Shown here piece by piece: positions 1-58,715 of a stretch of 64,000 bases of DNA. Numbering within the stretch: position 1 is the first letter of the stretch; the number at the start of each line of letters is the position of its first letter. The notes beneath the pieces were generated by a model that did no database searches, had not been told where the DNA came from, and saw nothing but the letters and a program-made list of their open reading frames with translations. A program made the position numbers and the translations under genes. Source of the DNA: Hymenobacter sedentarius (GTDB taxonomy: Bacteria; Bacteroidota; Bacteroidia; Cytophagales; Hymenobacteraceae); the NCBI RefSeq assembly GCF_001507645.1, contig NZ_CP013909.1:186001-250000 (forward strand), written 5' to 3'.

Positions 1-1153
1 TGCTGGTGCGGCCCGATACTTTGGTGGCGTTGAGCAGCGGCGTTTCGGCGGGGTTGCGCACGATGCGCTCGTTGGGGCCGGCTTGCACGTTGTAGAAGCC
101 CACCGGGGTGGCGCCCACCCGGCGCGAATAAAACAAATTGCCTTTGTTGAACAGCTCGGTGCCTTCGGTAAAGAAGGGCCGGTTTTCGTTGAACTGCACT
201 TCAAAGGGCGAGAGGTTGAGCACCTGGTTGTCGCTCTGCACCTGCCCAAAGTCGGGCACCAGCGTGGCGTCGAGCGTGAAGCTTTCGTTGATGCCCCACT
301 TGATGTCGGCCCCGCCGTTGAAGCTGGTGGTGGTGCGCTTGGTGCCTTCGGCGTTCAGGGGGTTGTGGTTGACGTAAGCCGACACGTAGGGTGTGAGCGA
401 GAGGCGCAGCGGCGGCTTCAGGTCGCGCAGGCCGGTGAGCTCGCCCCACTGGTTCACGAAGCCCGACACCTGGGGCTTCACCTCGTTCCAGAAAAACTGC
501 TGGTTTTCGCGCTTGCGCTGGCGGGCAAAGTTCAGGCCCCAGAGCTGCTCGGGCGCCCCGCTGAAGCGGATGGCCGAGTACGGAATGCGCAGTTCGGCTA
601 CCCAGTCGGTGCCGCGCTGCACGGCGCGGCTTTCCCACACCGCATTCCAGTTGCCGTCTTCGCCCCCGGCCGGCGAATAGCGCGCATCGAGCTGCACGCC
701 CGAAGCCGTGACCGTAAAATTGTAGCCGTTGAGCTGGTCGTGGTAGGTGTCGATGAACACGCTGAACAAGTCGGAATTGCCGAAATTATCCCGTGCCGTA
801 AGCTCCCGCAGGATGGAGTCCTGCGAGATGTCGTGCATGACGGCCCCCACGTACAGGGCGGCGTCGTCGTAGAGCACGCGCACTTCGGTCGGGTATTTTT
901 CGTGCGGGCCGGGGTTGGGCCGCTGCTGGATGAAGTCGGTGGCAACGGGCGCCTCGCGCCAGGCCGCCTCGTCGAGCACACCATCGATTTTCACGGCTTC
1001 GCGGAGGCGCACCGCGCCCAGCTGGCGCTTGGGCCCGGCCGTGGCCGTGGGAGCAGCCGCGGGGGCGGCGGTTTGGGCCAGGGCATTGGGCAAGGCCAGC
1101 CCAAGAAACCCGATAAATAGAAAGAAAGCGCGCAGAGAAAAGGTGCTGGTCAT
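1..1153 (-). CDS. DUF5916 protein with N-terminal CBM9-like domain (partial, 3' end outside window)
   Basis: The reading frame is open from an ATG at 1151-1153 to the left edge, giving 384 residues without a stop. A signal peptide covers about residues 1-27 (ending NALAQ). Residues of about 45-215 resemble the carbohydrate-binding module 9-like domain that precedes DUF5916, beginning at IDGVLDEAAW. The stretch NENRPFFTEGTELF near residue 320, followed by FYSRRVG, is characteristic of the DUF5916 part, which is thought to form an outer-membrane beta-barrel related to TonB receptors. Family members are usually about twice this length, so roughly half is missing here. The substrate is unknown. 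It stands alone on the minus strand, downstream of the sigma/DUF4097 cassettes. The family call is confident; a transport role is inferred. Confidence 0.85.
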   Translation of the reverse strand, partial: MTSTFSLRAFFLFIGFLGLALPNALAQTAAPAAAPTATAGPKRQLGAVRLREAVKIDGVLDEAAWREAPVATDFIQQRPNPGPHEKYPTEVRVLYDDAALYVGAVMHDISQDSILRELTARDNFGNSDLFSVFIDTYHDQLNGYNFTVTASGVQLDARYSPAGGEDGNWNAVWESRAVQRGTDWVAELRIPYSAIRFSGAPEQLWGLNFARQRKRENQQFFWNEVKPQVSGFVNQWGELTGLRDLKPPLRLSLTPYVSAYVNHNPLNAEGTKRTTTSFNGGADIKWGINESFTLDATLVPDFGQVQSDNQVLNLSPFEVQFNENRPFFTEGTELFNKGNLFYSRRVGATPVGFYNVQAGPNERIVRNPAETPLLNATKVSGRTS

Positions 1154-1332
1154 AGCAGAAAGAAGTGTGGTGGATATAGATGCAAAACGGCGCACACGGT
1201 TGCCCAACTCTTCGGACGCCTCCAAAAAAATCAGGAAAACTCGTTCTTAAAGGCTGGCCATCAGGACGCACGAATGCGGGTGGCCGCCGGTGTGGCGCCC
1301 TTTTGCGTGGAAACTCCCGCCTTGTGGAATGG

Positions 1333-2079
1333 TTACTTGCGCTTGCGGAAATACACGTCGTTGCTGATGGATTCGAGCTTGACGAGCGGGCCGCTGCCCT
1401 TCAGGGTGCCGCGCAGCTGGTAGCCCACCATGGGGTTTTTCTGCGGGGTTGAGCTAAACGCAATGTCCTGGTCGGTGTACACCTCGCCCGTGATGGTTTT
1501 GAGGGCCAGCTCGGCGCCCTTGGTAGCAGGCCAGGCCACGTCCACAAAGCCGCTCAGAGACTTGGCCTCGATGGCCCCGGTGAGGCCCACGATGTCGATG
1601 TTGCCACTGAGCGTGCTCACGTGCAGGGCCACATCGGCGGGCACGGTGATGTCGTACTCAATCAAGGCGCACACCTGGTTCACTACGCGGCCGTCGTGGT
1701 CGCGGGCGCCGCCGTTTTTGCCGTTGGTGATGTACGTATCGCCGTAGTAGGAGCCGCCGTTGGGGCAGTCGCCGGGCTCGGCTTTGCGCAGCATTTCCTT
1801 GTCAAACTCCGAGGTCAGCTTCAGCTCCTCGCCGGCCGGCTCCAGGGTGAGCAGCAAGGCATCGTTGAGCTTGTTTTGGTTGATGCTGACGGAGGCCTTC
1901 ACGGTCATTTTGCCGCTGGCCCCGGCCCGGATGTGGATGTTGCTGGCCTGCCGCAGGTTGAGAAACACCCGCTGGCCGGCCGTTAGATTAGCGCTTTTTT
2001 CGATGATTTTTTGGGCCGTAGCCTGCTGGACGCCGCTCGCGGCAATGACCAGCAACAGGAAGAATATAAGGCGGCGCAT
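1333..2079 (-). CDS. Exported DUF4097-like beta-solenoid protein (cassette 1, gene 4)
   Basis: This 248-residue protein has a clear signal peptide (MRRLIFFLLLVIAASG, then TAQ). The start is the ATG at 2077-2079; an in-frame extension upstream would lack a signal sequence and would run into a repeat. The body contains the short repeating beta-strand pattern typical of DUF4097 putative adhesins (HVSTLSGNIDIVG, AKSLSGFVDVAW, LKTITGEVYTD, LESISNDVYFRK). It differs from the other three DUF4097 proteins by a Cys-containing insert (about residues 100-140). It is the last gene of the first sigma cassette and lies 221 nt after its neighbour, so it may be transcribed partly on its own. The molecular role of DUF4097 proteins is not established; envelope sensing is an inference from the context. 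Confidence 0.85.
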   Translation of the reverse strand: MRRLIFFLLLVIAASGVQQATAQKIIEKSANLTAGQRVFLNLRQASNIHIRAGASGKMTVKASVSINQNKLNDALLLTLEPAGEELKLTSEFDKEMLRKAEPGDCPNGGSYYGDTYITNGKNGGARDHDGRVVNQVCALIEYDITVPADVALHVSTLSGNIDIVGLTGAIEAKSLSGFVDVAWPATKGAELALKTITGEVYTDQDIAFSSTPQKNPMVGYQLRGTLKGSGPLVKLESISNDVYFRKRK

Positions 2080-2177
2080 GATGCAGAAAATGAGAGGTGA
2101 AAGGCTGGGGTTGAGTGATAGTGGAGCGGGAAAAAGAACGTCATGCAGAGCACCGTCTGTCATGGTGAAGAGCCGTT

Positions 2178-2264
2178 TGTCATGCTGAGCGTAGTGAAGC
2201 ATCTTATCACGTCACAACGTTTCGTTCAGCGAGGATAAGACGCTTCGCTACGCTCTGCATGACA
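2178..2264. repeat. Extragenic inverted repeat, TCATGCTGAGC family
   Basis: The left arm (2178-2208) and right arm (2233-2264) are imperfect reverse complements, each with the core tcatgc-gagcgtag-gaagc. A shorter related fragment lies just before it at about 2139-2165. The same family occurs again at 4719-4819. It lies between two DUF4097 genes in the same direction and would form a long hairpin in their transcript. Confidence 0.75.
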
Positions 2265-2300
2265 CGAGGCGCAGTGAAGCCGTCTTTTTAAAGCTTCAGG

Positions 2301-3071
2301 CTACTTGGCTTTGCGGACAAAAACGTCGCCGCTCACGGTTTTGAGTGACAGTTGGTTGCCGCCGCCGTTGATGGTGCCGTCAACCACCTGGCCGCCCACG
2401 TGGCGCATGCTGGCGTCCTGGCCTTTGCCCAGGTTCAGGTCGAAGTCGGTGTACACCTCGCCCGAAACCGAGCGCAGCTTCAGCGTGGCCTTGGTGTTGG
2501 CGGGCATGCTCACGTCCACATCGCCGCTCACGGTAGAAATGGAGCTGGGACCCTGGCGCAGCGGGGCAAAGCGCACCTGCACGTCGCCGCTCACGGTGTT
2601 GGCCACCACGGGGCCGGCCACGTTGGTGAGCTTGATGTCGCCGTTTTTCACGTTTATCTCGAGGTCGCCGGTCACGTCGCGCACGGCCACGTCGCCGCCG
2701 TTCCAGTTGGTCTGGTTGTACTGCACAGTAGAGTTGCGCGGAACACGAATGGTGTAGTTGGCGTCTTTGCGCGAGGCCCGCACAATGTGCACGGTGTTGT
2801 CCTGCTGCGTCACGGCCAAGCCGATTTTGGTGTTGTCCACGGCCGAGTTGTAGATGGGGCGCAGGCCCTCGGCGCGCTTGGGTGTTTCTTCGTAGCCGTC
2901 GCCTTTTATCACCAGCTCGTTGCCGTCGATGCCTTCCACCGTCACGTCGCTGCCCTGCATGTCGATGATGATTTTGCGGTCTTTGCCGCCGAGTTTGGTG
3001 CGGTATTCCTGGGCGTGCCCGGCCTGGGCCGCCAGCAGGCCCGCCAATGCGAGTACAATGAGCTTGTTCAT
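2301..3071 (-). CDS. Exported DUF4097 family protein (cassette 1, gene 3)
   Basis: This 256-residue protein starts at the ATG at 3069-3071 with the signal peptide MNKLIVLALAGLLAAQAGHA. Repeated strand-turn units give the beta-solenoid pattern of DUF4097: VAVRDVTGDLEINVKNGD, VANTVSGDVQV, ISTVSGDVDV, LRSVSGEVYTDF, LKTVSGDVFVRKAK. The ending VFVRKAK is almost the same as ILLRKAK in the paralogue at 4878-5750, which supports duplication of the cassette. It follows the anti-sigma gene by 98 nt on the same strand. It probably acts in the periplasm or at the cell surface. The function is unknown; a link to the sigma/anti-sigma pair is inferred from gene order only. Confidence 0.88.
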   Translation of the reverse strand: MNKLIVLALAGLLAAQAGHAQEYRTKLGGKDRKIIIDMQGSDVTVEGIDGNELVIKGDGYEETPKRAEGLRPIYNSAVDNTKIGLAVTQQDNTVHIVRASRKDANYTIRVPRNSTVQYNQTNWNGGDVAVRDVTGDLEINVKNGDIKLTNVAGPVVANTVSGDVQVRFAPLRQGPSSISTVSGDVDVSMPANTKATLKLRSVSGEVYTDFDLNLGKGQDASMRHVGGQVVDGTINGGGNQLSLKTVSGDVFVRKAK

Positions 3072-3169
3072 GGAGGTAAAAAAGTTAGGCAAGTGAGGTC
3101 CTGGCGCGGCGCCGGAGGCCGGCGCCGCGAGCAGAAAACAGGTGAGAAAAGAGTAGGAAAACGAGAAGA

Positions 3170-4024
3170 CTAAATCAGTTTGCCGATGCCGGCTTCGGCC
3201 TGGGCCCGCACCACGGGCAGGGCATCGGGGCGTTTGGCCAGACGCTCGAGCTGGGGCACGGCCCGGCGCACGCGCATCGACACCACCATGTCAATCAGTG
3301 CGATTTGCACGTTGGGGTCGGTTTGGATGGGCAGGGAGTTAGCCAGGCCCTCCCGCACCCGGGGGTCGTCGCGGAGGCGGTACAAGGCTTCGCAGGCCGC
3401 CAGGCGCACGTTGGGGTTGGGGTCGAAATTGAGGGTATTGAGGAGCACCTGCACGGTGGGGTCGCCGGGCTCGGATTCTTTGGGCGAGTTGGTCACCAGC
3501 CGAATCCGGTCGCTGGCCGAAACCGTGCGGCCGTTGTCGCCGGTCAGGGCTTGGGCCAGGGCGTAGGGGGTGTTTTTATCCGCTTCGGAAGTGGTGGCCA
3601 CGCCGTCGGTGGAGCGCCCGCCCCAGGGTAGCTGGCGGCCGAGGAATACGCCGGCCGCAATCAGCATAATGCTGGCGGCGATGCGCATCCAGTTATTGGC
3701 CACCGCCGTGGGCCACATCGACACCACCTTGGCTTCGGGTTGAGCCGGGGCCGGAGCGCTGGGCACTGCGGTGGGCAACAAGGCCTTCTGCTCTTCCAGC
3801 ATGGCCATAAAGTTGGCGCGCAGGGCCGTGCGGGGCACTTCGGGCAGGGCCGCGTCCAGGTCGTTGGTGAGAGCACGGAGCTGGGTTACTTGCAGCTGGC
3901 AGGCGGGGCAGGTGGGCAGGTGGGCCGCCACGCGGTCGGCCTCGGCAGCGGGCAGGCAGTGCTCCACGTAGGCCGGCAGCAGCGCTTCTAGCTCGTGGTA
4001 GGCAGAAAGTTCGGGCGTTTTCAT
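3170..4024 (-). CDS. Anti-sigma factor: zinc finger, one membrane segment, HEAT-like repeats (cassette 1, gene 2)
   Basis: This 284-residue protein has three parts. The N-terminal zf-HC2 anti-sigma zinc finger carries H35, C39 and C42 in AAHLPTCPAC. A single membrane segment lies at about residues 111-130 (WMRIAASIMLIAAGVFLG). From about residue 190 to the end are helical repeats of the HEAT type (FDPNPNVRLAACEAL, then QIALIDMVVSM). The expected arrangement is a cytoplasmic zinc finger that binds the sigma factor, with the HEAT part in the periplasm. The gene starts 3 nt after the sigma gene's stop, so the two are almost certainly co-transcribed. Many zf-HC2 anti-sigma factors lack such a HEAT domain, so it may be the sensor; that part is inferred. 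Confidence 0.85.
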   Translation of the reverse strand: MKTPELSAYHELEALLPAYVEHCLPAAEADRVAAHLPTCPACQLQVTQLRALTNDLDAALPEVPRTALRANFMAMLEEQKALLPTAVPSAPAPAQPEAKVVSMWPTAVANNWMRIAASIMLIAAGVFLGRQLPWGGRSTDGVATTSEADKNTPYALAQALTGDNGRTVSASDRIRLVTNSPKESEPGDPTVQVLLNTLNFDPNPNVRLAACEALYRLRDDPRVREGLANSLPIQTDPNVQIALIDMVVSMRVRRAVPQLERLAKRPDALPVVRAQAEAGIGKLI

Positions 4025-4027
4025 GGC

Positions 4028-4582
4028 TTAGGTAGCGAAATAGATTTTGCGCAGCGCCTGCAGGGCGCGGTGGGCTTTTACGCGGGCGGCTTCGGCGGTG
4101 CAGCCCAGCAGCTGCCCGATTTCTTCGTAGCCGAAGCCCTGGAAGCGGTTCAGCACCAGGATTTCGCGCTGCGGGGCGGGCAGCATCGCCAGGGCCTCGT
4201 GCAGGTCGTCGGCGCAGGTGCTCACCCGCATTTGAGAGACGGCCGCGCCGCGCAAGCCGCCGGTGCGCTCCACTTCCTCCACGTCCACATCGGCGGCGCG
4301 CAGCTTTTCGCGGCGCTGCCAGTAGTCGGCGTGCACGTTGCGGGCCATCTGGTACACCCAGGCCTTGAAGGGCTGGGTGGGCTGGTAGCTGCTGCGGTAT
4401 TTAAGGATGCGCTCGAACACAGTCTGGGTGAGGTCTTCGCTGGTTTCGCGGTCGTTGGTGAGGCGGGTGAGGTAATTGAACAAGGGCCCGTGGTACCGTT
4501 CGAATAGCGGCACGAGCTGGTCGAGGTCATCGGCCCGGACAGCGGCCATCAGTGCTTCGTCGCTCGTACTCGTGGTGGTCAC
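4028..4582 (-). CDS. ECF-type RNA polymerase sigma-70 factor (cassette 1, gene 1)
   Basis: At 184 residues this is normal ECF size. Region 2 lies at about residues 15-90, with PLFERYHGPLFNYL, SEDLTQTVFERIL and FKAWVYQMARNVHADYWQRR. Region 4 lies at about residues 125-180, with LPAPQREILVLNRFQGFGYEEIGQLLGCT as its helix-turn-helix core. The start is a GTG at 4580-4582. It is the first gene of an apparent operon with the HEAT-bearing anti-sigma factor. The gene at 7509-8060 is a paralogue in the same position of a second cassette. ECF factors usually activate their own operon; no conserved promoter shared by the two cassettes could be made out by eye. Confidence 0.95.
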   Translation of the reverse strand: MTTTSTSDEALMAAVRADDLDQLVPLFERYHGPLFNYLTRLTNDRETSEDLTQTVFERILKYRSSYQPTQPFKAWVYQMARNVHADYWQRREKLRAADVDVEEVERTGGLRGAAVSQMRVSTCADDLHEALAMLPAPQREILVLNRFQGFGYEEIGQLLGCTAEAARVKAHRALQALRKIYFAT

Positions 4583-4718
4583 GGGTGGTGGTTTGGAGTG
4601 GGATTGAAAGGAGTACCGGGCTTTGGGCCATTCGTTACATGGTGGCTCAATTTTTTTTTCAAGCTCAGAAATGAGCTAAAAAAGAACTTCATACAGAGCG
4701 CAGAAAAATTGAGATAAA

Positions 4719-4819
4719 AAAGAACGTCATGCTGAGCTTGTCAAAGCATCTCTACCGCGCAACTAATTGAATTTAGTATGCAGTAGAGATGCTTCGACAA
4801 GCTCAGCATGACGTTCTTT
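4719..4819. repeat. Extragenic inverted repeat, TCATGCTGAGC family
   Basis: Two 37-bp arms (4719-4755 and 4783-4819) are reverse complements with one mismatch, separated by 27 nt. The core is acgtcatgctgagcttgtc followed by aagcatctctac. It lies between the second cassette's last gene and the first cassette's sigma gene, where it could fold into a strong hairpin and separate the two transcripts. There is no clear T-run, so terminator activity is not certain. Confidence 0.85.
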
Positions 4820-4877
4820 ATTTCAGCCTGAGTGCTGGTAGGCATGACGTTGCATCATGCTCGAAAAACGACTGGCC

Positions 4878-5750
4878 TTACTTGGCTTTGCGCAGCAGGA
4901 TGTCGCCGTTCATGGTTTTCAGCATCACCTCGGCGCCGCCGCCGTTGACTTTGCCATAGGTCCAGTCGTCGGTGCTGATGCGGTAGAGGCCATTCTGGGA
5001 CGTACGGGTCACTTTGGGCGTGTTCTTGTCCACGGCCACGTCAAAGTCGCTGTACACATTGCCGCGGTCCGACTTCATCTTGAGGGCGGCTTTGGCATTG
5101 CTCGGGAACGTGACGTCGACCTTGCCGTTGAGGGTGGAGAAGGCCATGGGCGCCCCTGATTTCACGCTTTTGAAGGTAGCCGTGAGGCTGCCGTTCACGG
5201 TGTTGGCCACGGCCGAGCCCGATACCTGGTTGAGCTGAATGGGGCCATTTACGTTGGAGATTTCCAGCTCACCGTTCACGTTCTCGACGATGATGTCGCC
5301 GTTGTTGACGGTGCTCAGCTTGAGCGAGAAGTTCTGGGGCACCTTGATGGTAAGGTCCACGGGCCGCATGTGCGACTCGGTCGAAATCTCGACCACGTTG
5401 TTCTTCTCTTCGGCCGTCAGGTTCAGGCCCGATACGTTGGAGAGGCGCTTCATGCCGGCCGGGGCGGGGCCGTCGTCGTTGCGCTCGCTGTGCCGGCCCG
5501 AATTACGGGGGCGGGCCGCGGCATCAATCACCACGTCTTTGCCGCCGTAGCCGGTCACGTGAATAAAGCCGTTGACCAGGCCCACTTCCAGCGTACCGGG
5601 CTTGCCGGGCGAGCTGAGGGCTACCGTGAGTTGTTCCTTGGTATCCTTGGCATCCTGGGCCAGCGCCGGCAGGGCGCCGGCAAGGAGGAGAAGGGCAAGG
5701 CTCGCCCGCCGCACGGGGTGCGTGAAGGCCATTTGAACTAAGTTGTTCAT
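4878..5750 (-). CDS. Exported DUF4097 family protein (cassette 2, gene 4)
   Basis: This 290-residue protein has an N-terminal signal sequence (RRASLALLLLAGALPALAQ); an ATG at codon 7 is an alternative start. Strand-turn repeats of the DUF4097 type run through the second half: LSTVNNGDIIVENVNGEL, ISNVNGPIQLNQVSGS, VANTVNGSLTATF, FSTLNGKVDVTF, MKSDRGNVYSDFDV. It ends MLKTMNGDILLRKAK. It follows the neighbouring DUF4097 gene by 18 nt, so both are probably on one mRNA. It most resembles the protein at 2301-3071. Exact function unknown. Confidence 0.88.
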   Translation of the reverse strand: MNNLVQMAFTHPVRRASLALLLLAGALPALAQDAKDTKEQLTVALSSPGKPGTLEVGLVNGFIHVTGYGGKDVVIDAAARPRNSGRHSERNDDGPAPAGMKRLSNVSGLNLTAEEKNNVVEISTESHMRPVDLTIKVPQNFSLKLSTVNNGDIIVENVNGELEISNVNGPIQLNQVSGSAVANTVNGSLTATFKSVKSGAPMAFSTLNGKVDVTFPSNAKAALKMKSDRGNVYSDFDVAVDKNTPKVTRTSQNGLYRISTDDWTYGKVNGGGAEVMLKTMNGDILLRKAK

Positions 5751-5768
5751 CGTTGATAAGGGAAAGTA

Positions 5769-6641
5769 CTATTGTTTGGAGACGGTCACGTCGCCGTTGA
5801 TGGTTTCGAATCGCAGGTCGGGCCCGCCTTTGCCGATGCGCACGGCGGTTTCCTTGGTGAGCTTGTAGACGGTGCCGCCGCCGCGGCCCTCCTGGTTTTT
5901 GGTGACTTGCACCGGCAGGACTTCCGCATTGGCAAAGTCGGTGTAGAACTCCCCGTGCATGCTCTTGAAGTGCATGTCGGCGCCCAGGTTGGCCGGGTAG
6001 TGCACCCGAATCTGGCCGTTGATGGTGTGGTAGGACGAAGCCCCGGGCGGGTTGGCGGCGTAGGTGGCGTCCACGTTGCCGTTCACGGTGTGGGCCCAGG
6101 TGGTGCCCTTCACGTTTTTGAGGGTGATGGAGCCGTTCACGTTGCCCACGTGCAGGGGCCCGGTCACGTCCTGCACGAGCACGGCGCCGTTGTTCACCGT
6201 CGACACGTGCAGGTTGAGCTGGTAGGGCACCTTCACCACAAAGTCATAATTGTAGCGGTAGTCAATGTCCTTGTGGTTCCAGCTGCGGTGGTCGTTGGTG
6301 TGCGGACGTGAGTCGAAGGGCCCGCTCAGGTACACCACCACGCTATCGCCGTGCTGCTGGAAGCCCAGCTGGGCCTCTTTCCTGCCTTGCTCCAGGGCAG
6401 CCGCGTCGTCGGCCCGTATGGTTTTGGTAGCTTCCACCAGCACCTTGTTGCCGGCGTAGCCCTGCACCGTCACCGAGCCGTTGATGTTATAGAGGGCCAG
6501 GGTGCTGCGCCCGGCATCGGCCGTGAGCGTAAATTCCTTGCTGATTTGCTCCTTGGCTTCTTTGCTCTGCGCCCAGCACCCGGTGCTAGACAGCAGCAAA
6601 AGCAGGGCGCTCAGGCTGGGGCGAATATTGGGGCTGGTCAT
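5769..6641 (-). CDS. Exported DUF4097 family protein (cassette 2, gene 3)
   Basis: This 290-residue protein opens with a hydrophobic signal (LSALLLLLSSTGCWAQ). Cys in TGCW could make it a lipoprotein, but the fit to a lipobox is weak. DUF4097-type repeats include LHVSTVNNGAVLVQDVTG, VGNVNGSITLKNV, AHTVNGNVDATY, YHTINGQIRVHY, FKSMHGEFYTDF and FETINGDVTVSKQ. Its first 56 nt overlap the end of the anti-sigma gene in another frame, which suggests translational coupling. No other ATG would keep the signal peptide, so the overlap appears real. It is a paralogue of the three other DUF4097 genes in this region. Confidence 0.87.
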   Translation of the reverse strand: MTSPNIRPSLSALLLLLSSTGCWAQSKEAKEQISKEFTLTADAGRSTLALYNINGSVTVQGYAGNKVLVEATKTIRADDAAALEQGRKEAQLGFQQHGDSVVVYLSGPFDSRPHTNDHRSWNHKDIDYRYNYDFVVKVPYQLNLHVSTVNNGAVLVQDVTGPLHVGNVNGSITLKNVKGTTWAHTVNGNVDATYAANPPGASSYHTINGQIRVHYPANLGADMHFKSMHGEFYTDFANAEVLPVQVTKNQEGRGGGTVYKLTKETAVRIGKGGPDLRFETINGDVTVSKQ

Positions 6642-7497
6642 GGCTGAGGGGGGTTGAGGGCGCGGCGGGCCGGCCGTGGGACAGGGTTTGAATGGTTTGT
6701 TCGATTTTGCTCTTCACCGTCTGGTCCAGGTTTTCCTGCTTGAGCAGCTCACGCAGCGGCTTCACCGAGCGGCGCTCCTGCAGCTGCACCATCACGTCGG
6801 CCAGGGCGGTTTGCACCAGCGGCGAATCCTGGTTGGCCAGGGCGTGCACCAGGCCCAGGCGCACCGTGGGGTCTTGCGCCAGGGGGGCCAGGGCTTCCAG
6901 CGTGGCCAGGCGCACGTTCACGTTGGGGTCGTTATTGAGGGTGCTGAGCAGGGCATTCACCACGCGGGCGTTGGGGCCGTCCAGTTGCTTGGTGTAGCTC
7001 ACGGCCCGCAGCCGCTCGGTGGCCGAGGGGTTTTCGATAAGTGCCAGCAGCATCATCTGCCGCATGTCGCCTACCTGGCCTGCCAGCGCCGCGATTTGCT
7101 GCTGTTCGGCGCGCTCGGGCTTGTGCTCGTTGTTGAGCCAGTAGCCCCCTATCAGCCCCACTCCTATCAGGCAGGCGCTGTACACCAGCCGCAGCAGCGG
7201 CACCGGAATTTCCAGGGCCAGCCACCGCTGCCACAAACCCTTGAGCGAGTAGCTGGGCGCGGCTTCCTCCTGCTCCTTAAATGCGCTGAGCATGGCGTAG
7301 AAATCGGCGCGCACGTGCGGGCTGGGCTCGGGCACCGGTACGTTGCCCATGGTTTGCCACACCCGCTGCACGGCCTGCAGCTCCTCGCGGCAGTCGGCGC
7401 AGTCGGCCAGGTGGGCCGCCAGTTCCTGCTGCTCGGTGGGGGTCAGCTGGCTGCTCAGGTAATCGACTAATTGCTCTTTGGTGCGTTCACAGTTCAT
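6586..7497 (-). CDS. Anti-sigma factor: zinc finger, one membrane segment, HEAT-like repeats (cassette 2, gene 2)
   Basis: This 303-residue protein has the same architecture as the one at 3170-4024. A zf-HC2 zinc finger holds H29, C33 and C36 (AAHLADCADC). One membrane helix lies at about residues 101-121 (LLRLVYSACLIGVGLIGGYW). HEAT-like repeats follow from about residue 180 (NDPNVNVRLATLEALAPL, QDPTVRLGLVHAL, QTALADVMVQL). The C-terminal tail (about 30 residues) is proline-rich and overlaps the next gene by 56 nt. It starts 11 nt after the sigma gene. Expected role: hold the ECF sigma factor at the membrane until a periplasmic signal arrives. The use of HEAT repeats for sensing is an inference. 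Confidence 0.85.
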   Translation of the reverse strand: MNCERTKEQLVDYLSSQLTPTEQQELAAHLADCADCREELQAVQRVWQTMGNVPVPEPSPHVRADFYAMLSAFKEQEEAAPSYSLKGLWQRWLALEIPVPLLRLVYSACLIGVGLIGGYWLNNEHKPERAEQQQIAALAGQVGDMRQMMLLALIENPSATERLRAVSYTKQLDGPNARVVNALLSTLNNDPNVNVRLATLEALAPLAQDPTVRLGLVHALANQDSPLVQTALADVMVQLQERRSVKPLRELLKQENLDQTVKSKIEQTIQTLSHGRPAAPSTPLSHDQPQYSPQPERPAFAAV

Positions 7498-7508
7498 AGC
7501 TCTAGCAG

Positions 7509-8060
7509 TTAATTTTCGATGCGCAGGTAGCTCGCCTTCAGCTCGTTCATGGCGCGGTGCACGCGCACCTTCACGGCGCCTTCGGTGGTGTTCAGCACCC
7601 GGGCTATTTCACCGTACTTCATTTCCTGAAACCGGCTCAAGACCAGGATTTCGCGGTCTTCGGGGCGCAGCCGGCCCAGTGCCTGGTGCAGCAGGGCCAC
7701 GTCCTGGGCCTGCTCCAGGCTGGCATCGGCTGCGGCGCCGCCAGCCAAGTGCTCGGCCATGCTGTCGATGTCGGTGTGGTGGGCATCGTGGCGGTTTTTC
7801 TTGATGAAGTCGGCCAGCACGTTGCGGGCCAGGTGGTACATCCAGGTGCGAAACTCGCCGTCGCCGGTGAAGGTGTGGCGGTATTTGAGCATGCGGTAGA
7901 AGACATTCTGCACTAGGTCTTCGCTGGCATCGGCGCGGCCCAGCATGTGGTAAAGAAAGCCGAACAGCTGGCGGTGGTAGCGCTCAAAGAGCAGGCCCAT
8001 CCGGTCCAGGTCGCCGCCTTTCACCCGCAGCATCAATGCATTATCCGATAGCGAGTCCAA
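7509..8060 (-). CDS. ECF-type RNA polymerase sigma-70 factor (cassette 2, gene 1)
   Basis: This 183-residue ECF sigma factor has region 2 at about residues 15-90 (LLFERYHRQLFGFLYHML, SEDLVQNVFYRML, FRTWMYHLARNVLADFIKK) and region 4 at about residues 120-175 (LRPEDREILVLSRFQEMKYGEIARVLNTT). The assigned start is a TTG at 8058-8060, preceding MDSLSDNALML; the first ATG is nine codons in. It resembles the sigma factor at 4028-4582 and heads an equivalent set of genes. Expected to be released by the anti-sigma factor downstream and to transcribe this operon and possibly others. Confidence 0.94.
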   Translation of the reverse strand: MDSLSDNALMLRVKGGDLDRMGLLFERYHRQLFGFLYHMLGRADASEDLVQNVFYRMLKYRHTFTGDGEFRTWMYHLARNVLADFIKKNRHDAHHTDIDSMAEHLAGGAAADASLEQAQDVALLHQALGRLRPEDREILVLSRFQEMKYGEIARVLNTTEGAVKVRVHRAMNELKASYLRIEN

Positions 8061-8360
8061 CCTGATGCGCTGAAGTAGTGAGGGGATTTGCTTGTGGACA
8101 CCGGGCCCAATCGGGAAGGTTACAGAAAATTCACATCTTTTTTTATGCCGGCTGATTCAGCCCCGCGCACCAAGCGGCTACGTGCAGGGCCTGAGCGACT
8201 TTCGACCCAGCAAAGTGCTGAGCTTAATCCAATTATTTCAATAATTATTCTTAACTTCTGTAACCTAACCCGGAGCAGTAGCCGTAAAGAACCCACGCTA
8301 AAAGCAGACTCGCTTGGCATCTAATACATTAAGTGCATTCTCACCTCTAACTCGCGACCT
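8061..8360. other. Divergent intergenic region without a gene
   Basis: These 300 nt separate the minus-strand sigma cassette from a plus-strand secreted protein, so they must hold promoters for both directions. An AT-rich stretch at about 8225-8265 is the likeliest core. No close match to TAnnTTTG and no RNA gene could be recognised. Confidence 0.5.
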
Positions 8361-8831
8361 ATGAAACTCTCCAGAATTTTGCTCGCATCCGTAGTTGCCA
8401 CTGGCGTAAGCAGCGCGGCCCTCGCCCAAACCACCACTAGCGGCTCTACCTCGGGTACCACCAGCGGCACAACATCGGGCACTACCACTAGTGGTATGGG
8501 CAGCACCTCTGGCACTACCACGAGCGGGACCACGAGTGGCACTACAATGGGGACCACCTCGGGCACTACCAGCGGTAGCACCACGATGGGTACCACCAGC
8601 GGCAGCACTACGATGGGCACTACCAGCGGAACCACCAGCGGTACTACCTCGGGGGCCACTACCAGCGGCAACATGGGCACGACCTCGGGCACTACTACCA
8701 GCGGCACGACGAGTGGCACTACCAGCGGCGAAATGAGCGGCAGCACCACGTCGATGAGCAACCGGCCCATGAAGGCCAAAGCCAAGGCCACGCCCAAGAA
8801 GACCAAGATGAAGGCCCACCCCCGGAAGTAA
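8361..8831 (+). CDS. Secreted Thr/Ser/Gly-repeat protein with basic C-terminal tail
   Basis: This 156-residue protein has a signal peptide (RILLASVVATGVSSAALAQ). About residues 24-132 consist almost only of Thr, Ser, Gly and a few Met, in degenerate repeats of the type GTTSG or GTTMGTTSG. The last 20 or so residues are basic (MKAKAKATPKKTKMKAHPRK). The repeat codons vary, so this is not a simple recent DNA-level expansion. The mature part could be an extended, possibly glycosylated surface or periplasmic segment. No enzyme motif is present. Function unknown. The Lys-rich ending recalls the tails at 11903-12562 and 29232-32243. Confidence 0.8.
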   Translation: MKLSRILLASVVATGVSSAALAQTTTSGSTSGTTSGTTSGTTTSGMGSTSGTTTSGTTSGTTMGTTSGTTSGSTTMGTTSGSTTMGTTSGTTSGTTSGATTSGNMGTTSGTTTSGTTSGTTSGEMSGSTTSMSNRPMKAKAKATPKKTKMKAHPRK

Positions 8832-57474: not shown

Positions 57475-57891
57475 AAAGGCGTTGACGGAAGAAGGATTGG
57501 CAAGCAAAGTACAGCCACTTCTCCCTTGCCCTTGCAGAACTCGGAAGAACTTCTCGTGTGAGAAATCAGCTCAATTTTCTCCCCACCGGCCGGAGCATCG
57601 TGGGGCGGCTACGGGCAGGGTTGAGCTGGGCCTCACGGTACCTACTCCCCTGCCAGCAGGCGCGCTGCAAGGCGCTGGGGCAGCGGCTACTGCTCAATAG
57701 CTGCCGCGGCATAAAGCATCTGCACGTTTCGCTGCTGGTGGGCCCAGAAGCCCACTCATACTCCGTGAAGGGCCAGAGTGCGGACGAGCAAGTAGTACCA
57801 GGCATAGGGCTGGCCCATAGGCCAAGACCTCCTTCCAACCTCCGTTCTCTCGGCGCTGAAAAAAAATTTCTAAAAAGTCTGTAACGTTCTC
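57475..57891. other. Intergenic region, possibly with a decayed gene
   Basis: About 420 nt with no intact gene. On the minus strand, 57640-57820 reads GQPYAWYYLLVRTLALHGV, stop, VGFWAHQQRNVQMLYAAAAI, stop, which looks like old coding DNA, but the family cannot be named. Confidence 0.35.
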
Positions 57892-58158
57892 CTACATGGG
57901 CGGTATCCACTTCTGAAAGCACTCTTCTCCGCCTGCCATATGCACGCCGCTCCACCGTGCAGCCCCTTGTGCTGCTGAGTTCTCCCCGAAGCCCTGCTCC
58001 GAAGAACTAAAACGCAATCCCGCCAGCCGCCCGGCTTTGTCAAGTCGGCGCGAAGCCTGCGACAGAATTTCCTTGAATTCTGGCTCTCGATTATCAACTA
58101 CACTGGGATAGAAGTAAGCCAAACAGGTAGAATAAACATCATCTACTATGTTTTGCAT
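57892..58158 (-). CDS. Small hypothetical protein
   Basis: An 88-codon frame from the ATG at 58156-58158 (MQNIVDDVYSTCLAYFYPSV, EFKEILSQASRRLDKAGRLA, RWSGVHMAGGEECFQKWIPP). The composition is that of an ordinary soluble protein rather than a chance frame, but no domain is recognised. The gene at 58245 is divergent, 86 nt away. Confidence 0.45.
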   Translation of the reverse strand: MQNIVDDVYSTCLAYFYPSVVDNREPEFKEILSQASRRLDKAGRLAGLRFSSSEQGFGENSAAQGAARWSGVHMAGGEECFQKWIPPM

Positions 58159-58244: not shown

Positions 58245-58715
58245 ATGAACTTCTCTTTCAACCTCCGCCCCACTCAGTCGCTCACGGCCTCCGCTCCCCT
58301 ACGCCTGGCTTCAGCCCAATCCCTGCGGGCTGCCTTGTTCGGCGGGCTGGCCATCCTGGGCTGCAGCAGCGCGGCAATGGGCCAGGATTCTCCGTCCGTT
58401 AAAGCTCAGCAAACCGATGCCCACACCCTGGCTCTCACCGTCGAAAACCCCACCCAGCAGCGGGTACAGCTGGAAGTGGTATCATCCCAAGGCCACTACT
58501 CCCGCCTTCTGAATGAAGTGCACCACCGCCCTTCCTACGGCACGAAGCTCAGCTTCAACAAAGTACCCGCCGGGGACTATGCCGTCCGGCTGCGCGTGGG
58601 GCGCGAGAGCTACCGCTACCATGTGCAAGTACCAGCCACTCCGCAAACCGCCATCTTAGTACAGGAGCTGGCCCCGACCCCGGCCCAAGTGATGGTAGCC
58701 CAATCGGCTCGCTAG
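58245..58715 (+). CDS. Small exported protein, probable beta-sandwich
   Basis: This 156-residue protein has an N-terminal export signal (LRAALFGGLAILGCSSAAMG; a lipobox at LGC is possible). The mature part has alternating strands (HTLALTVENPTQQRVQLEVV, LSFNKVPAGDYAVRLRVGRE, YRYHVQVPATPQTAILVQEL), as in short immunoglobulin-like modules of Bacteroidota secreted proteins. Function unknown. A strong terminator follows. Confidence 0.7.
   Translation: MNFSFNLRPTQSLTASAPLRLASAQSLRAALFGGLAILGCSSAAMGQDSPSVKAQQTDAHTLALTVENPTQQRVQLEVVSSQGHYSRLLNEVHHRPSYGTKLSFNKVPAGDYAVRLRVGRESYRYHVQVPATPQTAILVQELAPTPAQVMVAQSAR

Follow-up and report, generated by a model that had tools for sequence, protein, structure and literature searches.

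Adjacent sigma, HEAT anti-sigma and Toastrack cassettes in Hymenobacter sedentarius as probable envelope-stress switches

Why should the gene for an extracytoplasmic function (ECF) sigma factor be followed by one for an anti-sigma factor with HEAT repeats and by two for exported Toastrack (DUF4097-type) proteins, and why should this arrangement stand twice side by side? The question is raised by a stretch of 64,000 nucleotides of Hymenobacter sedentarius (contig NZ_CP013909.1, positions 186,001 to 250,000, here called the window), a genome assembled as a single contig of 4.87 Mb. Two four-gene sets, A (8060-4878) and B (4582-1333), lie on its minus strand in the same order: ECF sigma, anti-sigma with a zf-HC2 domain, a transmembrane segment and a HEAT domain, and two exported Toastracks. 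A first-pass annotation made from the letters alone had described the sets in this way, and all eight open reading frames (ORFs) were confirmed. Each set is probably an autoregulated envelope-stress switch resembling RseA/RseB, in which the HEAT domain reads the Toastracks, which would also be its output.

Set A comprises sigA (7509-8060), antiA (6586-7497), T1 (5769-6641) and T2 (4878-5750), and set B comprises sigB (4028-4582), antiB (3170-4024), T3 (2301-3092) and T4 (1333-2202); the probable true starts of T3 (~3071) and T4 (~2079), judged by eye, are downstream of the longest-ORF starts. Regions 2 and 4 were detected with Pfam in both sigma factors (Sigma70_r2 59.8 and r4_2 60.2 bits in sigA, 54.1 and 53.1 bits in sigB), and both anti-sigma factors gave zf-HC2 above the cut-off together with HEAT_2 (31.9 and 36.1 bits in antiA, 31.8 and 37.0 bits in antiB), in agreement with the identities first assigned. 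Hydropathy peaks begin near residues 98 and 114 in the two anti-sigmas, one transmembrane segment being assigned to antiA, and the HEAT domains are predicted to be periplasmic. The AlphaFold model of antiA (mean predicted local distance difference test score (pLDDT) 86.7, predicted template modelling score 0.53) has an N-terminal helical domain, a long helix across the transmembrane segment and a helical-repeat domain with repeats at residues 159-274; in the PDB, the N-terminus matches solved RsiW by profile, and the HEAT part resembles alphaRep protein-binding repeats by profile and fold. Between the sets, identity over the aligned parts is 41% for the sigmas, 32% for the anti-sigmas and 22-42% for the Toastracks (blastp), and by sequence comparison the sets are paralogous throughout. 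antiA and T1 share 56 bases (6586-6641), at the end of the former and the start of the latter, and overlaps of ~52-118 bases were seen repeatedly in A cassettes of the same genus, which suggests translational coupling.

Two exported DUF4097 proteins had been assigned to each set. With Pfam this held for T2 (31.7 bits) and T3 (61.0 bits) at a cut-off of 22.9 but not for T4 (12.9 bits) or T1, for which the scan gave no match; both were nevertheless counted as Toastracks because they are homologous to T2 and T3 by blastp (T1-T2 3e-32, T4-T3 5e-12) and, for T1, by fold. T1, the only Toastrack modelled, was predicted as nearly all beta with a mean pLDDT of 90.2, and its best PDB match by Foldseek was the Toastrack reference structure 4QRK (E 4e-9, TM-scores 0.43/0.55). 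Next came Parabacteroides entries whose titles name a putative lipid-binding protein, adhesin or pectinase, and 4OPW ranked sixth (0.23/0.26). Sequence searches of the PDB with a T1 profile and with T3 gave no match. By a simple rule (a hydrophobic stretch together with a signal peptidase I-like or lipobox pattern), a signal-peptide-like N-terminus was found in 369/374 cassette Toastracks, T1-T4 included. The lipobox-like pattern of the same rule occurred in 38 first-position, 4 second-position and 1 fourth-position Toastracks; some lineages may thus have a lipoprotein as their first partner. On a tree of 133 Toastracks from 67 sets, drawn without one short protein and without three sets whose first ORF is split, the proteins sorted by their set and their position into four groups, A1, A2, B1 and B2 (support 98, 75, 99 and 99; 3 changes, the minimum), and the pair has therefore been kept as a fixed one. 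A one-to-one pairing between the sets was tried, further long or odd rows being left out as well; the best tree joined T1 with T4 and T2 with T3 (support 92, order swapped), and this pairing is not claimed because approximately unbiased tests did not reject the alternatives (p 0.246 and 0.329).

The search for relatives of the anti-sigma factors covered 59 related genomes, a named genome collection (80/289 loci kept) and 395 genomes from the phylum; of the latter, 258 gave a match, many through the N-terminus only, with at least 60 bits in 51 (by eye). From 185 fetched regions, 209 HEAT hits were reduced to 194 distinct ones by a limit of 40 bits and removal of near-identical proteins; since the regions were selected for resemblance to the anti-sigma, this sample is biased with respect to linkage. 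A sigma gene stood directly upstream of the HEAT anti-sigma in 193/194 and a Toastrack directly downstream in 194/194, with two Toastracks in 173 cases, one in 13 (some cut by the end of the region), three in 7 and four in 1. At the single locus with no sigma gene directly upstream (L260, genome G376), a Toastrack match stands there. Among six weaker-match regions outside the 194, the three with HEAT all have Toastracks and the three without HEAT have none. Because DUF4097 above the cut-off occurs at only one other place in the genome (T5, a lone gene 3.7 Mb away) and the linkage holds in 193/194 cases, chance association is excluded. The conserved linkage in other Bacteroidota on which the first-pass annotation had made its cassette depend was thus found, and the four-gene linkage is real and recurs widely in the phylum.

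Tree distances were then compared over the 181 complete sets. Correlations were high between the sigma and the anti-sigma domain (ASD; 0.86), for HEAT-T1 (0.92) and HEAT-T2 (0.91) and between the two Toastracks (0.94), and across these two halves they were 0.61-0.75 (HEAT-sigma 0.61, HEAT with its own ASD 0.75). When one random member was drawn from each of 30 clusters, HEAT-T1 exceeded HEAT-ASD in 299/300 draws (medians: HEAT-T1 0.65, HEAT-T2 0.76, sigma-ASD 0.70, HEAT-ASD 0.39, sigma-HEAT 0.34). Within the 128 zf sets a mirror-tree partition was sought and dropped, all values being 0.91-0.98. In 12/181 sets the sigma belongs to another cluster, a single clade on the sigma tree (support 100); the three such sigmas tested scored 190-206 bits for NF058625, the GFO_1088/PG0214 family (cut-off 130). 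This other sigma needs 4 changes on the tree built from HEAT and both Toastracks (70 representative sets), also 4 by the starred branches, with gains and losses of it indistinguishable. The HEAT part of one such anti-sigma (locus L102) is identical to that of antiB at 56/117 positions, and its anti-sigma domain at only 8/76. Outside the cassettes the GFO_1088/PG0214-family sigma, which in the cassettes goes with the same anti-sigma N-terminal motif, has instead a short, membrane-bound anti-sigma: of 27 loci fetched, all above the cut-off, 2 were cassettes and 25 gave no HEAT in the 1.5 kb flanks and no Toastrack save one weak match (13 bits, L299), and in 19 of these 25 the next ORF encodes a short protein (~140-175 aa) with the N-terminal motif of the cassette anti-sigma (by eye). 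Judged from these sequence comparisons, the cassette consists of a cytoplasmic half (sigma and anti-sigma domain) and a periplasmic half (HEAT and Toastracks), and B-type periplasmic halves seem to have been joined with an unrelated sigma family through about four changes. Trees had been proposed to show whether the two sets share an origin: the sets are homologous, but set B is mixed, its periplasmic half grouping with lineages of the unrelated sigma.

Upstream of the sigma genes, a GTAAC-type motif is conserved about 60 bases before the gene (38 for the other sigma type) and differs between A and B and with the sigma type. An A-type ECF site (GTAACCTT ... GGTGTCCAC) lies at 8094-8124 on the minus strand, 34 bases upstream of sigA (0 mismatches; 38.5 bits by position weight matrix (PWM) against a random maximum of 13.0), and a B-type site (GTAACGAA ... 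CGGTACTC) at 4611-4639 on the same strand before sigB (0 mismatches; 41.2 bits against 11.5). The matrices exclude the rows of this genome and include the near-identical Hymenobacter sp. BT770, the nearest named record (antiA 98% identical); random maxima were taken from 2000 sequences of 300 bases. The A matrix gave a median of -7.6 bits on B regions and the B matrix -0.1 on A regions. Searched as a two-block motif, one spaced pair was found in 25 of 36 lightly thinned A regions of the genus (shuffle maximum 3) and in 23/30 B regions (4), and in other genera in 31/79 A regions (5) and 9/17 B regions (4); the control was five mononucleotide shuffles, and the counts are inflated by relatedness. 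Cores were located in 29/38, 21/33, 76/86 and 16/18 regions, and some misses are due to ORF starts set too far upstream, which mask the site. A cores read CTGTAACCTT...GGTGTCCAC or AGTTTCCAC, B cores in the genus TGTAACGAAT...CGGTACTCC and B cores accompanying the other sigma TGTAATGTTT...TCGTCT. In other genera, several B-type cassettes that retain the common sigma type carry GTAACCTT instead, and the upstream motif therefore appears to follow the sigma. From sequence, the AAC-type -35 autoregulated promoter of ECF/zf-HC2 pairs is thus predicted for the sets, and each sigma presumably uses the site before its own gene.

The following mechanism is proposed. At rest, the membrane anti-sigma would hold the ECF sigma through its cytoplasmic zf-HC2 domain, binding and inhibition being predicted for these pairs, while its periplasmic HEAT domain would be docked to the two exported Toastracks of the same operon. 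On disturbance of the envelope, the Toastracks would be drawn away or would change state and the HEAT domain would be freed or altered; the anti-sigma would then be inactivated, probably by stepwise proteolysis, and the sigma released. The released sigma would transcribe its own operon and a few further envelope genes, and the additional anti-sigma and Toastracks made in this way would reset the switch. In this scheme we infer that HEAT binds the Toastracks, in which direction they act, what the stimulus is and that proteolysis takes place. Reading of the Toastracks by HEAT is the most economical interpretation because both would be in the same periplasm, are co-inherited and are kept together, and because a change of the cytoplasmic half goes with a change of the upstream site. 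More tentatively, the HEAT and Toastrack pair might be a portable periplasmic sensor of Bacteroidota set on at least two unrelated ECF halves and working as a self-titrating gauge, in which the sigma would produce the same Toastracks that, by their free amount in the periplasm, set the anti-sigma, and Toastracks encoded elsewhere in the genome would serve as outputs and competitors.

The adjacency of the sets and the homology of every gene might be explained by a recent local tandem duplication, in which case the association of HEAT with Toastracks would have no special meaning. Duplication and divergence, as assumed in the first-pass annotation, are borne out by this homology, but not as a recent local event. 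On the HEAT and Toastrack tree, A and B are two deep sides with several families each. Among 37 genomes of the genus (own included), A-type anti-sigmas (at least 200 bits) were found in 16 and B-type (at least 100 bits) in 27 (by eye), so that A or B also occurs alone; in 9 of the 14 genomes with both types A and B are within ~12 kb, in the order A-B or, in G022, B-A, and in 5 they are far apart or on different contigs. The A and B cassettes of four Runella records, of G046 and of G165 are divergent neighbours. Because the two deep clades extend over several families and are often separately located, the duplication is taken to be old, and A and B are, on this sequence evidence, old and separately inherited cassettes; as their upstream sites also differ, a recent tandem duplication was rejected as scarcely credible. 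It is very improbable, too, that the system is cytoplasmic and that its Toastracks are submembrane scaffolds, as for Toastracks linked to the phage shock protein (PSP) response. That placement is argued in Ravi et al. 2024 (PMC11237479), where DUF4097, DUF2154 and DUF2807 are unified as Toastrack and tied to envelope-stress contexts, and where an intracellular location is deduced from domain fusions and submembrane signalling complexes are proposed to assemble, one context including an operonic sigma factor. The cassette Toastracks do not fit this view, as their N-termini, with the counts given above, combine a hydrophobic stretch with a cleavage or lipobox pattern; the HEAT domain, moreover, lies beyond the transmembrane segment from the anti-sigma domain, although the charge rule alone does not decide its side.

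Less easily set aside, if still unlikely, is that the Toastracks are effectors only, co-transcribed as envelope stabilisers, while HEAT senses misfolded proteins, peptidoglycan or lipid. Toastracks do look like outputs, because B-type sites precede the distant T5 and, with a deviating spacer, a DUF2807 gene of the Toastrack superfamily in genome G014; in addition, PF00144 genes lie behind A-like sites at two loci in Runella and at three in family f42. This explanation is weakened because Toastracks that were outputs only should go with the sigma and its promoter, whereas HEAT tracks the Toastracks above its own cytoplasmic domain in nearly all resampling draws and remains beside them in sets with a different sigma half. 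Several points nevertheless weigh against the RseA/RseB-like switch as proposed. Among the 166 sets that use the common sigma type, all eight computed correlations are 0.86-0.95, so that the split into halves rests on few exchange events in the B lineage, and these were counted on a quick tree with long-branch warnings whose starred branches call for caution. The signal-peptide test was a crude rule, and the anti-sigmas give no uniform result under the charge rule (K/R more frequent before the transmembrane segment in 114/194, equal in 50 and more frequent after it in 30), so that the topology depends on the anti-sigma domain being cytoplasmic. No B site was found in 18/29 T5 loci, 7 of which are at 55-61% identity and outside the cassette. 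Co-inheritance within one operon is no proof of contact between HEAT and Toastracks, and the Toastracks might activate, inhibit or be nothing more than outputs.

For RpoE-RseA-RseB of E. coli and AlgU-MucA-MucB of Pseudomonas, PMC8103513 and PMC7400510 describe a periplasmic partner that stays on the periplasmic domain of the membrane anti-sigma until an envelope signal separates the two. The cassettes share the operon order of sigma, anti-sigma and periplasmic partner; they differ in that the outer part of the anti-sigma is HEAT, that there are two partners, of Toastrack fold, and that their binding is a prediction. A match of RseB/MucB type was absent from the Pfam and NCBIfam results for T1-T4. 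By analogy, the cassettes are likely to follow RseA/RseB (MucA/MucB) logic with other folds, and the partner-gated stepwise proteolysis of RseA/RseB is predicted for their anti-sigmas on the same ground. As with LiaF, LiaG, LiaX, VraT and the PSP-linked Toastracks (PMC11237479), Toastracks are here tied to a switch of envelope-stress transcription; in contrast to the Lia and PSP systems, the output is by an ECF sigma with a HEAT anti-sigma, and the Toastracks are exported as a separate, kept pair. LiaX is described in PMC11779154 as a sentinel; its N-terminal part is set free outside the cell and probably exerts its effect via LiaF. Exported regulators thus have a precedent in LiaX, against whose model T1-T3 score weakly (22.9-28.6 bits, cut-off 350). 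The LiaF-like, LiaG-like and LiaX-like matches below threshold came from the cassette Toastracks themselves, and LiaRS, PspA, PspC and DUF2089 were not found among the eight cassette proteins with Pfam and NCBIfam. The class I zf-HC2 anti-sigmas (ASDI) RsiW, RsrA and ChrR likewise combine a zinc-finger-type domain with a transmembrane segment, and the cassette anti-sigma is distinguished from them by its HEAT sensor; a linked ASDI is given for 6% of Bacteroidetes ECFs in a survey (PMC7406223) in whose main text a word search for 'heat' gave two occurrences, one within 'heatmap' and one in a reference on heat shock. The GFO_1088/PG0214 assignment of the 12 exchanged sigmas was by tree cluster, with three by model score. 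No description of a HEAT anti-sigma with Toastracks was found in searches of the open-access literature. Exported DUF4097-type proteins, some solved relatives of which are titled only 'putative adhesin', gain a concrete and testable role; the natural exchange of the sigma half with HEAT staying by the Toastracks amounts to an evolutionary domain swap indicating interacting parts, and a small regulon, resolved to the base pair, and two distinct types of promoter can be predicted from the conserved sites.

The cassette had been called self-contained; each sigma gene does have its own conserved site, but sites also stand before a DUF5916 gene, the lone DUF4097 gene and a gene for a small exported protein. 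Genome-wide, the B pattern with at most 1 mismatch was found at six places, a threshold with no separate control, among them 3913514-3913542, 63 bases before T5; at 2 mismatches it was not enriched (85 matches against 189 for the reversed control). In 450-base regions of T5-like loci the B site was above the random maximum in 11/29, namely in 11/20 at identities of at least 53% and in 0/9 below 45%; two of the nine misses (G009 and G023) sit inside the B operon itself, and the T5 site of G029, a genome with no antiA or antiB match, is barely above the limit (11.7 bits). The near-absence of hits for a B pattern with a one-base-too-long spacer is uninformative, but its only hit stands just before the DUF2807 gene of G014 (L403, 1501-2288), which suggests that further Toastracks belong to the regulon. 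The A pattern at one mismatch gave 17 hits in 10 of 12 genomes (reversed control 0), 10 at sigA, 5 just downstream of T4 before a DUF5916-type gene and 2 elsewhere. In the window, an A-like site at the end of T4 (1307-1337, minus strand; 3 mismatches, 18.9 bits), with similar sites in other Hymenobacter loci, reads towards the 5' part of a DUF5916/CBM9 gene (1-1225, minus strand; 876 aa, continuing beyond the window; DUF5916 702.8 bits), a predicted target. Among DUF5916-like genes, those of ten genomes are preceded by an A-like site (13.9-19.8 bits) and those of two Hymenobacter loci, L083 and L156, by a B-type site instead, the identity being by Pfam in H. sedentarius and by size and N-terminus elsewhere.

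A hybrid A/B site (TGTAACGTT ... GGTATCCAC) lies at 57880-57910 on the plus strand, with 1 mismatch to the A pattern and 1 to the B pattern, about 335 bases upstream of a gene (58245-58715, plus strand) for a 156-aa protein with a signal-like N-terminus and no Pfam family at E 0.01, which is a further predicted target by virtue of the site. The gene was found at 23 places, and in the 730-base regions of 13 loci examined the site was kept in 4, its own and the three closest orthologues; the long leader between site and gene is kept in these four genomes, and a similar arrangement with a different small exported-looking protein was seen at L396. The PF00144 beta-lactamase-family genes that follow A-like sites near cassettes are at L130 and L152 in Runella and at L253-L255 in family f42, the assignment being by Pfam for L130, L152 and L255; matrix hits within the T1 coding sequence of the f42 loci were dropped as codon coincidence. 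Upstream of sigA, the divergent neighbour at 8361-8831 (plus strand) encodes a low-complexity, exported-looking protein rich in Ser/Gly/Thr repeats.

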